Below are positions 46,383 through 50,053 of a stretch of 64,000 bases of DNA, piece after piece. The DNA lies in assembly GCA_937899835.1 (NCBI GenBank), contig CALCCE010000049.1:1-64000 (forward strand), read 5' to 3'. The notes beneath the pieces are model-generated. The model did no database searches, was not told where the DNA came from, and was given only the letters and a program-made list of their open reading frames with translations. A program made the translations under genes and the position numbers. Source of the stretch: an uncultured Flavobacteriales bacterium (GTDB lineage Bacteria > Bacteroidota > Bacteroidia > Flavobacteriales_G > Salibacteraceae). How positions within the stretch are numbered: the stretch's first letter is position 1; each line of letters opens with the position of its first letter.

Positions 46383-47777
46383 ATGAAGTTCCATTTGTTG
46401 ATGATGACCGGACTTTTTTGTGTCTTGTCGGTACGTGCTCAGGAAAACCTCGGGATTGCCAACAGCAATTACGCGCCTACCAACTCTATGCTGCTCAACC
46501 CGGCTTCAGTGGTCAATTCAAAAACTTACCTGGATATCAACCTGGTGGGAGCTTCAGCCTACGCGCGCAACAACCTCGCTTACTTGCCGAAGAGCCAGTT
46601 CTACTTCCCGCGTGATATTTGGAGCCTCAACATTCCAGAACCGAGCTACAACACCTCCAACAACCGCATCAAAGGCTACCTGGATGCCGGAATACAAGGC
46701 CCTTCCGCTACTTTGCAATGGGGAAAACACGCCTTCGGTTTCTATACCGGGGCGCGCAGTGTCACTTCGGTGAAACGCATTCCTGGCTACCTGGCCCGCG
46801 TAGTGATTGATGGAGCCGACCCATCGGAAACCGATTACCGCGAATACAACGACCGCAATGTGAGGGCCAAGAGTATGACCTGGGGCGAAGTGGGGCTGAG
46901 CTACAGCACCATTTTGAGTCAGAAAAACAAAGACATGTGGACGGGAGGAATCACCCTCAAGCGTTTGTACGGCTTGCAGAGTACCTCTTTCATTCTCGAA
47001 CGTGCTGACATTACCACGAATGAAAACAATCAGGTGCAGATCAACGAACTGCGCGGCAAATACGCCAATGCCGATTTCAATTTTCGTGCGGGCAGAGGAT
47101 GGAGTACTGATATCGGGGTAACCTACCAAAAGATGCTGGAAGATGTGACGCGTTACGTTCCCCACCTGACTCGCTATGGCTGTGACCACATCAATTACAA
47201 ATACAAAATCGGAGCTTCTTTGCTCGATGCCGGATACATCCGTTTTAAAAATGGTGCTACTGCCAGGGAATTCGAGCGCACCACTCAAGTACAAAACGTG
47301 GAAGACATCGACGACCCGGATGAATTGACCCAGGTATCTCCCGAAAGTGGCACTTTCACTGAGAAGTTCAGGTTTACCAACCAAACGCCCATGGCCATCT
47401 CGGGGCAGTTTGACTATAATTTTGAAAACGATTTTTACATCAATGCCACCGTCGTTCAAAACCTCGTACACCCACGAAACTACGGACCCGAAAGAGCCAA
47501 CCTGCTTTCGATAACGCCCAGGTACGAACGCCGATTCTTCGAAGCGGCCATGCCCTTATCCCTGCATCAGTACACCAGTCCGCAGGTTGGCCTCGCCTTC
47601 CGCTTTGCTTATCTGGTGATTGGAACGGATAACGTGGTCCCGTTCCTCTTTAAAACAGACGTTTACAGTGCGGACGTTTACTTCAGCCTGAAGTATTCGC
47701 TCTTTAACAATCCAGGCTGTAAAAGTCGTTCTGGTCGTCAATCGAAGAAAAAATGTCCGGGACCTGCCGGCAGTTAA
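46383..47777 (+). CDS. DUF5723-type outer-membrane beta-barrel protein, first of two paralogues
   Basis: A 464-residue protein with a signal peptide (MKFHLLMMTGLFCVLSVRAQ) and the N-terminal pattern NLGIANSNYAPTNSMLLNPASV...YLDINLVG, which I associate with the DUF5723 family of Bacteroidota outer-membrane proteins. Many amphipathic strands follow. The end is basic and then KCPGPAGS. It is a paralogue of the gene at 48623-50053, which shares the same start pattern, internal GWSTDIGVTYQKM-like segment and C-terminal KCPGPA. Function is unknown. The two genes are separated by the hairpin array. Confidence 0.75.
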   Translation: MKFHLLMMTGLFCVLSVRAQENLGIANSNYAPTNSMLLNPASVVNSKTYLDINLVGASAYARNNLAYLPKSQFYFPRDIWSLNIPEPSYNTSNNRIKGYLDAGIQGPSATLQWGKHAFGFYTGARSVTSVKRIPGYLARVVIDGADPSETDYREYNDRNVRAKSMTWGEVGLSYSTILSQKNKDMWTGGITLKRLYGLQSTSFILERADITTNENNQVQINELRGKYANADFNFRAGRGWSTDIGVTYQKMLEDVTRYVPHLTRYGCDHINYKYKIGASLLDAGYIRFKNGATAREFERTTQVQNVEDIDDPDELTQVSPESGTFTEKFRFTNQTPMAISGQFDYNFENDFYINATVVQNLVHPRNYGPERANLLSITPRYERRFFEAAMPLSLHQYTSPQVGLAFRFAYLVIGTDNVVPFLFKTDVYSADVYFSLKYSLFNNPGCKSRSGRQSKKKCPGPAGS

Positions 47778-47854: not shown

Positions 47855-48120
47855 CCGGGGACAATTTTAAAGCAACAGCAGTTCCGGGTCGCAGACGACT
47901 CCGTTTCCGATCCAATAAAAAAATGAAAAATTATTTCTGAAAAGTATCGGGGGCACATTCGCTGGCGACACCTGTTCCGGGTAGTGGATGGCTTTGTCCC
48001 CGACTATTTTAAAAAATGGGACAGCTTTTTCAGGGAAAACCCGGAGACAAGATCGCTTGTAGCCCGGAACCGGCAATGAACGTGCCGCGTCCCCGACCAG
48101 TGGCACGGTTTGTCCCCGAG
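47855..48120. repeat. Degenerate single copies of the GTCCCCG/CGGGGAC repeat
   Basis: Scattered arms of the same repeat as the array downstream: CCGGGGACAA at 47855-47864, TTGTCCCCG at 47994-48002 with a mutated partner CCGGAGACAA at 48041-48050, GTCCCCGA at 48089-48096 and TTGTCCCCGAG at 48110-48120. Most lack an intact partner arm at hairpin distance. They look like older, decayed units, and the rest of the stretch shows nothing else. Confidence 0.7.
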
Positions 48121-48156
48121 CACCGACCATAAAAACATCCTTGAGTTACTTTAATG

Positions 48157-48412
48157 CTTGTCCCCGGCTTTTTATGCAGCCGGGGACAAGTCGGCTGATC
48201 TTGTCCCCGCGTTTTGCATTAGTCGGGGACAAGCTTAGTTACCCAGTTGTCCCCGGGTAGCGTCATCACCCGGGGACAAATGAAGTTTGGTCTTGTCCCC
48301 GACCCAACGAGCAGCCGGGGACAAATAATATTTGGTCTTGTCCCCGACCCACACGAGTAGCCGGGGACAAATAATATTTGGTGTTGTCCCCGGGCTATTC
48401 CTCCCGGGGACA
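48157..48412. repeat. Tandem array of six palindromic hairpin units, period about 46 bp
   Basis: Six inverted repeats at 48157-48190, 48200-48233, 48247-48279, 48293-48324, 48338-48370 and 48385-48412. Each has arms of the type TTGTCCCCGgn / ncCGGGGACAA; units 1 and 3 have perfect 12-bp stems. Loops are 8 to about 14 nt and differ, though units 4 and 5 share CCCA..CGAG.AG. Units are separated by 9- or 13-nt spacers, and the last two spacers are nearly identical (ATAATATTTGGT plus C or G). This indicates tandem duplication of a 45-46-bp block. There is no T-run, so it is not an ordinary terminator, and no open frame or cas gene is nearby. Confidence 0.9.
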
Positions 48413-48590
48413 GGCTTGATTCGCAATAGCGGCCGATTTAAAAATGAAGCTGCTTGGGAGGGGACGCCTTCCTGACTGAATACCCGCGAAGGAGCAGGTA
48501 ACTTTTAATGCCCCTCGGAGGCAACACTTTCTTGTATAAAGTGGTCTATAGGCAAAAGGGTTTCCCTGGCTTTTCGGAAAACGCTTTTTG

Positions 48591-48622: not shown

Positions 48623-50053
48623 ATGCGCCTTCTGCCTAAACCTTCCCTCGTTGGGCTTTTGTTCATCCATTGCTTGTTGTTGCTGAGTAACCGCAGTGTT
48701 GCTCAGGAAACGCAAGGCATGGCGCTGAGCAATTACTCCATTACCACCGCGGCTCGGCTCAACCCTTCCTTAATGGTGGACCCAAAAGCATTTTTGGACA
48801 TCAATCTGGTGGGCATCAATGGCTTTGCCTACAACAACTACCTCTATTCTCCGAAATCTGTTTCTTTTCCTGCCGGGGCGCTTGCTGAGGGCTATGATGG
48901 CCTTTTTGAAAACCTGGGCGGGAATCGAAAAAATGGAATTGTCAATCTGTTCTTACCGGGTCCTTCTTTCACTGCCAGCATTGGCCGTCACAGCATTGGA
49001 GCCGGGGTGGCAGTAAGGGGCGTAGCCAACCTGCGTAAACTCCCCGAACACTTTGCCCGTTTTGCTTTTCGAGGGCTCAATTTCGACGATTTGCACGGCA
49101 CTACCTGGGACGATGGCAACTTCAATGTTAAGTACATGGGTTGGGCGGAGGTTTCCGCCTCGTATGGCTATTCTTTCTATCAGTGGAATCGAGACATGTG
49201 GCAGGGTGGCGTTACCCTCAAGCGTTTGTTTGGATTGGCCCATGGTGCCCTCATTGTGGATGAACTCCAATATTTTGTGCCAGATACGGTCGATTTCGAC
49301 ATCCTGAACTTTAGCGGTCGCTACGCTTATTCGGATGTAGGTTGGAATGTAGGCCGCGGCTGGGGCATGGATTTGGGCGTTACCTACAAGAAGATGAAGG
49401 AAAACGTGACCAATTACGTTCCTCATTCCCGGGCCAATGGCTGCCGAGAAGTAGATTACCTCTACAAAGTAGGCGTTTCGCTGCTCGACCTGGGGTATAT
49501 CCGCTATAAGACCAACGCCAATGTGCGCATACTGGACAACGTGAGTGCGGATTGGGACAACTATTGGCGCGACACCTCCAACCAGGCCGAGGTGCTCGAC
49601 CGGGCCATCTTGTCGAAGTTTGCCGAAGGAGACATTACTACCGATACGCGGTATTGGGCACCTTTACCTACTGCGATAACTGCCCACATTGATTACAATG
49701 TATATAAGGACTTCTATTTAGGTGGCGTAGTGGTGCAGCGCTTTGGACGCCCCAACAATTATGGCGTAGAGCGGGGCAACCTGCTTTCGATTATTCCGCG
49801 ATATGAAAAACGGTTTTTTGAAGCCTCACTACCTGTTTCACTTTATGACTATCGCAACCCGCGTATTGGGATCAGTCTGCGGTTTTGGGCTATAGTGTTG
49901 GGCACAGAAAATGTAATTCCCTTTATCATTCCTACCGATACGTACAGCTCCGATGGCTTCTTTTTCCTCAAATACATGCTCATCAACAAGCGGCAGTGCA
50001 AAGGAGCCAATGGACGATCGCGCAGGGCAAAGTGTCCTGGCCCGGCCCGTTAG
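48623..50053 (+). CDS. DUF5723-type outer-membrane beta-barrel protein, second paralogue
   Basis: A 476-residue paralogue of the protein at 46383-47777. It has a signal peptide ending near residue 28 (SNRSVAQ), then GMALSNYSITTAARLNPSLMVDPKAFLDINLVGINGFAYNNYLYSPKS. Long regions match the first copy (GRGWGMDLGVTYKKMKENVTNYVPH, GVERGNLLSIIPRYEKRFFEASLPVSLYDY), and the protein ends in a basic stretch plus KCPGPAR. The strand pattern predicts an outer-membrane barrel. Function is unknown. The shared terminal Cys-Pro-Gly-Pro-Ala is unusual for a barrel, which normally ends in an aromatic residue. Confidence 0.75.
   Translation: MRLLPKPSLVGLLFIHCLLLLSNRSVAQETQGMALSNYSITTAARLNPSLMVDPKAFLDINLVGINGFAYNNYLYSPKSVSFPAGALAEGYDGLFENLGGNRKNGIVNLFLPGPSFTASIGRHSIGAGVAVRGVANLRKLPEHFARFAFRGLNFDDLHGTTWDDGNFNVKYMGWAEVSASYGYSFYQWNRDMWQGGVTLKRLFGLAHGALIVDELQYFVPDTVDFDILNFSGRYAYSDVGWNVGRGWGMDLGVTYKKMKENVTNYVPHSRANGCREVDYLYKVGVSLLDLGYIRYKTNANVRILDNVSADWDNYWRDTSNQAEVLDRAILSKFAEGDITTDTRYWAPLPTAITAHIDYNVYKDFYLGGVVVQRFGRPNNYGVERGNLLSIIPRYEKRFFEASLPVSLYDYRNPRIGISLRFWAIVLGTENVIPFIIPTDTYSSDGFFFLKYMLINKRQCKGANGRSRRAKCPGPAR

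Follow-up and report, generated by a model that had tools for sequence, protein, structure and literature searches.

A dispersed intergenic element with predicted protein-binding sites on a 23-bp lattice in the genome of an uncultured Flavobacteriales bacterium

Many intergenic repeats of bacteria have been read as hairpins or as substrates of transposases. The lambda operator clusters consist of three sites, each of them a dyad, with a centre spacing of 20-24 bp, and are bound by cooperative dimers of CI and Cro, which have an XRE-like fold. Three further systems are close to the locus described here. BOX elements of Streptococcus pneumoniae are composite intergenic sequences with the arrangement boxA-boxB(n)-boxC and with predicted stem-loops (PMC3049150). 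REP/BIME sequences are intergenic inverted words with regular spacing and alternating orientation (PMC2817692, PMC6006769), and the terminal inverted repeats (TIRs) of TIRYT transposases carry the motif GGGGWSAS (PMC3733652).

The window, i.e., the whole stretch of DNA analysed, is 64,000 nucleotides long and was taken from contig CALCCE010000049.1 of assembly GCA_937899835.1 (Salibacteraceae). The original prediction placed six palindromic hairpins with a 46-bp period at 48157-48412, between two paralogous genes. The array is real. Five exact matches to TTGTCCCCGN{6,22}CGGGGACAA were found at 48158-48370, where none was expected from 100 shuffles, and the TTGTCCCCG/CGGGGACAA arms are exact in units 1-5. 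The sixth unit (48384-48413) has one arm base changed, its right end being CGGGGACAG, one base off. The units start at 48158, 48201, 48247, 48293, 48338, and 48384, in steps of 43, 46, 46, 45, and 46 bp, and the tandem period called by TRF over the array is 46. The perfect 12-bp arms of units 1 and 3 were borne out, and both neighbouring genes are DUF5723 (PF18990) paralogues; besides DUF5723, a weak Por_Secre_tail match was seen in the protein scans, and the two together suggest a member of Bacteroidota. Also in line with the prediction, no terminator-like site (it had noted the absence of T-runs) and no conserved open frame were found over the array. Most frames carry stops, and the differences show no consistent three-base rhythm. 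Growth by tandem duplication is supported as well, the adjoining units being near-identical. The limits of the array were drawn too narrow: related sites start at 47856, and the six hairpins are the youngest end of a half-kilobase non-coding island at 47856-48441. The parts of this island and its neighbours are the following.

46383-47777, + strand: flanking gene 1, DUF5723 family, 464 aa
47856-48441, + strand: whole lattice element, intergenic between the two DUF5723 genes, with 21 sites in nearly constant phase
47856-47864, - strand: left-most site, TTGTCCCCG
47880-47888, + strand: B-type site AGTTCCGGG
47948-48071, + strand: older module, with A- at 47948, B+ at 47973, A+ at 47994, an A-rich gap, A- at 48042, and B- at 48063
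48087-48118, + strand: two unpaired + sites 23 bp apart, GCGTCCCCG (48087) and TTGTCCCCG (48110)
48158-48189, + strand: unit w1 (unit 1 of the prediction) with 12-bp arms and a counterpart in islands C90, C63, and C181
48201-48232, + strand: unit w2, with a loop beginning CGT
48247-48279, + strand: unit w3, with 12-bp arms
48293-48324, + strand: unit w4, whose loop ACC..CGAGCAGC is shared with C63 and C181
48338-48370, + strand: unit w5, a recent duplicate of w4
48384-48413, + strand: terminal unit w6, shorter, with right arm CGGGGACAG
48414-48441, + strand: conserved tail 3' of the terminal unit, delimited by the tail alignment and the right-half alignment
48623-50053, + strand: flanking gene 2, DUF5723 family, 476 aa

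A scan allowing up to two mismatches found the TTGTCCCCG-type word from 47856 onward in both orientations, alongside a sister word, GGTTCCGGG; both fit or nearly fit TGNYYCCG. The word-to-word distances in the window island are mostly 20-25, 45-48, 67-71, and 92-93 bp, and if the island is laid out with 23 bases per line, they line up in nearly the same columns across 550 bp.

The island is one of several. When the palindrome pattern was left free at one arm position, 22 units were found genome-wide, all within six islands (control 0). The islands are labelled C49 (the window), C90, C206, C297, C63, C181, C112, and C155. Among them, C63 and C181 (G-type) were detected by profile models, and C112 and C155 are two looser islands, bringing the total to eight in the genome. 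Five of the eight (C90, C112, C155, C181, and C297) lie no more than about 1.7 kb from a contig end, and further islands may therefore hide in assembly gaps. Each island has about 20 sites. The A- B+ A+ part of the older module is also present in C206 and three times in C112, according to the alignments and the matches of model R1. In C112 (L040 1221-1590), the three copies follow one another with a period of 115-117 bp, equal to five lattice steps.

Exact TGNYYCCG sites number 98 in the 4090 bp of the eight islands (24/kb) and 186 in the 323,890 bp of fetched genome DNA outside them (0.57/kb), where they are 42 times rarer. Steps of 15-120 bp deviate by no more than 1 bp from a multiple of 23 in 65 of 83 cases inside the islands versus 0 of 6 outside, only six outside steps being in this range. 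The best period is 22.75-23.00 in C49, C90, C206, C63, C181, and C155 (R 0.86-0.99); C112 has its best period at 11.70, close to half of 23.4, and reaches R 0.83 at 23.2. The observed concentration was matched by 0 of 1000 random placements in each of six islands, by 11 of 1000 in C155, and by 657 of 1000 in C297, which is cut short by a contig end. It was matched by 0 of 2000 when the upstream diverged regions alone were pooled from five islands, with the recent tandem part omitted. Outside inverted pairs there are 47 sites, reading TTGKYYCCGG with no clear dyad partner, and in C155 the words run in direct orientation at 23-bp steps.

The element is a composite dispersed intergenic repeat, the working part of which is most likely a protein-binding lattice. 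That this non-coding sequence of about 0.5 kb serves as a lattice to which a sequence-specific DNA-binding protein attaches is given roughly even chances, and belief and doubt are about balanced, too, on whether the lattice sites bind some protein.

The islands are homologous to one another, so that counts across islands are not independent, and conservation was judged between paralogous islands of one genome. From the older sites through w1, C49, C90, C63, and C181 align over 182-183 columns with 70-87 differences and 0-1 indel events per pair. In the aligned left parts of these four islands, identity is 73-87% for the words and 41-52% for the spacers. The steps around w1 are 48, 23, 20, and 23-24 in C49 and C90, 48, 23, and 20 in C181, and 23, 20, and 23 in C63. 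Heavy substitution has thus left the length intact, a pattern that speaks for selection acting on spacing. The right end is also common: the terminal unit is found in C49, C90, C206, C297, C63, and C181, and the tail of about 30 bp that follows it in the window island is present in three others (C90, C206, and C297), with similar tails in C63 and C181. The end of the w4 loop, CGAGCAGC, is identical in C49, C63, and C181 despite differing arms. Near copies among adjoining units and diverged spacers, both seen here, would also suit a neutral tandem repeat in decay after growth by slippage. Such a repeat is nevertheless a highly improbable explanation, because the word and the pitch are kept in the diverged parts with almost no indels and because identically ordered units occur at other loci.

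The islands differ as wholes in one letter. The third letter of TGNYYCCG is T at 44 of 46 sites in C49, C90, and C206, and G at 29 of 30 sites in C63 and C181. Among unpaired sites alone, T was found at 14 of 16 in T-type islands versus G at 11 of 12 in G-type islands (Fisher 6e-6, and 1.5e-4 without TT-class sites), p values that are a guide only, with paralogous sites included in the counts. The columns homologous to the sites at 48087 and 48110 have T in C49 and C90 and G in C63 and C181. The C63 site homologous to 48042 keeps the T-type letter, its spelling being too divergent to enter the letter count, and the sites of C112 mix T, G, and A. Such a concerted letter change, affecting many different sites, is the outcome that a specificity change of a trans-acting reader would produce. 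As the unpaired sites follow the rule, stem pairing alone is insufficient as its explanation.

The original prediction had argued from compensating arm changes that the hairpin itself is under selection. This argument failed in 12 units from three islands, where 89.6% of cells were paired versus 89.9% in shuffles, and 1 pair was altered on both sides versus a shuffled mean of 1.4. Some covariation, which was not above shuffles within units, was present in w1 across four islands: pairing in its stem holds in 98% of cells, and 2 of the 13 pairs are altered on both sides, the structure used for this scoring having come from the alignment itself. The long w1 stem is kept in all four islands, and a structural role for this unit may exist. 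Further evidence against selection on the hairpin is that words outside the inverted pairs changed letter along with words inside them, and that C155 has direct-orientation words at the same 23-bp pitch, so that the unit hairpin cannot form there. We conclude from the sequences that the inverted units are probably mainly two sites placed face to face.

The same observations bear on a structured RNA, that is, a transcribed hairpin array that would act as a sponge or within the leader of the gene downstream. It would fit the w1 stem, the free arm letters of the 22 units (T/A in 15, G/C in 7, mismatched in 0), and the predicted RNA fold of the array, which is far better than that of shuffles (z -9.15), as would be seen with any inverted repeat. 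Against it, unit covariation was absent from the three T-type islands, unpaired sites show the same letter difference, and fixed spacing holds both inside the units and from one unit to the next, which RNA loops would not need. Moreover, no Rfam match was obtained up to E 1 in 27,903 bases from the eight loci, and the gene settings of the islands vary (tandem, divergent, and others). An RNA role for the whole array is accordingly considered improbable.

The gene neighbourhoods and the modular build are also relevant to a non-autonomous mobile repeat resembling BOX or BIME, the copies of which were spread by a transposase acting in trans. In such a repeat, the lattice sites would be where the transposase binds, the T-type and G-type islands would be subfamilies adapted to two transposases, and a change of transposase would yield the concerted change of the word. 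The fixed right end with a variable number of 46-bp central units is consistent with this, as are the position of the islands in unrelated gene neighbourhoods and the richness of the genome in other dispersed repeats. However, the copies are old, with spacers only 41-52% identical, and neither terminal inverted repeats nor target duplications were recognized. The neighbour proteins scanned include no transposase family above the Pfam cut-off, and the assembly has no Y1_Tnp domain: PF01797 gave 0 matches at E<=0.001 in the 307 contigs searched, several of which end in repeats, while the control was positive in 5 of 14 genomes. The prediction had named co-occurrence with a Y1-type (RAYT) transposase as a check on a REP-like hairpin, and this outcome speaks against a RAYT-driven REP, as do the confinement of the 22 units to six islands and the GT[AG]G tetranucleotide of the palindrome foot, which occurs in none of the 5' flanks of 12 aligned units. 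In all, three of four REP hallmarks tested were absent from the islands. A mobile repeat mobilized in trans is rather unlikely, though it deserves serious attention. Of the possibilities first listed for the array, it is thus the protein-binding one, named first, that is favoured, and the RAYT-driven REP and the argument from hairpin selection are not.

Protein binding could also mean the operator region of an ordinary single regulon, in which a transcription factor with multiple sites controls the neighbour genes. Two islands precede XRE genes and the window island precedes a DUF5723 gene, as such a regulon would have it, but about 20 sites per island are far above the usual operator, the neighbour genes show no common theme in a Pfam scan of their proteins, and several islands are hundreds of bp away from the next gene start. 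This alternative is quite improbable.

The two XRE genes are nevertheless the best lead to a reader of the lattice, because C112 and C155 lie directly upstream of them. They belong to an XRE/HTH_3 family in which an HTH_3 domain is combined with a second, long region that by our reading is probably helical. The family has seven matches in this genome (L041 2123-3001, L040 9-956, C97, C305, C161, C218, and C293), 0 in 34 other genomes of the bacterial family, and two weak matches in a sample of 394 other genomes of the class. A defence-system scan of two paralogues gave a weak match of the HTH part only. A candidate repressor gene of this type stands beside the lattice in two of the eight islands, and the other six have no adjoining XRE gene as far as their contigs extend. 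The upstream DNA read for the XRE genes contains an inverted word, GTTGCG-N13-CGCAAC or close to it, degenerate in C293, and the family may therefore read GTTGCG instead, as its possible true operator. It is doubtful that this XRE family binds the lattice sites, and the link is treated as a lead, not as a result. The GTTGCG-N-CGCAAC palindromes, 25-27 bp long, have 72 perfect copies genome-wide versus 3 in the control (G000; L220-L236). They frequently form tandem arrays, in which the local repeat unit measures 25, 46-52, 93-94.5, or 126-127 bp, and are frequently located at contig ends. With spacings of 25-26, 46-52, 67, 93-94.5, and 126-127 bp, they were rejected as a second 23-bp lattice.

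In the preferred reading of a protein-binding lattice, every 23 bp would hold one predicted site TTG(T/G)YYCCG(G), oriented either way, and a candidate DNA-binding protein would read the word. Binding at neighbouring sites could be cooperative, so that the protein would coat the island, and the coated locus might be silenced, insulated, or marked, or the binder's own gene might be controlled. The arrays would gain length as 46-bp double sites beside the fixed terminal unit are multiplied, either by slippage or by unequal recombination. A point against this reading is that 23 bp correspond to 2.2 turns of B-DNA, so neighbouring sites face different sides. The word, its strict pitch, and the one-letter difference between whole islands suggest a protein reader that co-evolves with its sites, in two dialects within this one genome. 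If real, such dialects would offer a natural test bench for following how a DNA-binding protein shifts its specificity jointly with dozens of binding sites. The fullest version is a chromosomal system restricted to one lineage, in which protein filaments assemble on 23-bp lattices at no fewer than eight loci, two paralogues of different specificity read the T and G dialects in the same cell, and the arrays grow at one end by gaining 46-bp double sites; it is tentative and unlikely to hold in every part.

The exact T-type palindrome was found in 0 of 34 other genomes of the family and in 0 of 41 other genomes of the order, the 34 included. The three-site lattice pattern was found in 0 of 394 other genomes sampled from the class, to be read with the profile models R1 and R2 having been run on the own genome only, so that a differently spelt lattice in a relative would escape. 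Across wider genome contigs, the palindrome pattern matched at least 120 stretches, and in the viral set 17; among the matches listed, for which the words were viewed and the context of 16 loci was inspected, most are single GC-rich hairpins. Plasmids and phages gave no match at E 0.01, and two viral three-site matches in GC-rich sequence were set aside as coincidence. In rumen Bacteroidales, 53-bp arrays of TTGTCCCCGAA..TTCGGGGACAAATAA flank an ATPase_2 gene on both sides (L169 5345-5495 and 7010-7165), and one such unit was seen near position 6994 of L110, upstream of a similar-looking gene start; the 23-bp lattice is absent from the rumen arrays. Other dispersed repeats with words like GAGCGCAGTCGAG were observed near islands and contig ends of the genome studied (L276 960-1440, L225, and L039 1-60). 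A search of the published literature found no description of the word TGNYYCCG or of a 23-bp lattice.

Compared with the described systems, the islands resemble BOX elements in that the end modules are fixed and the central modules between them, of about 45 bp, vary in number (PMC3049150); this likeness is one of build. Unlike in BOX, one short word is repeated at a 23-bp pitch from one end of the element to the other, the islands number eight, their spacers are strongly diverged, and the word differs by whole island. As in REP/BIME, the repeats are regularly spaced and in alternating orientation, but the conserved part is a 9-bp word here and a palindrome in REP, and the 22 units in six islands contrast with usually more than 100 copies per genome. 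The terminal arm GGGGACAG fits the GGGGWSAS motif of the TIRYT TIRs, and GGGGACAA misses it at the last letter (PMC3733652). Those TIRs flank a transposase gene, whereas none was found with the islands, and here the words form a lattice. With the lambda operators, the islands share sites repeated at a centre spacing of 20-24 bp, but they have about 20 sites each versus three, and the single word is not a dyad. Dispersed composite repeats are already known, and among them we call this form of word and lattice new.
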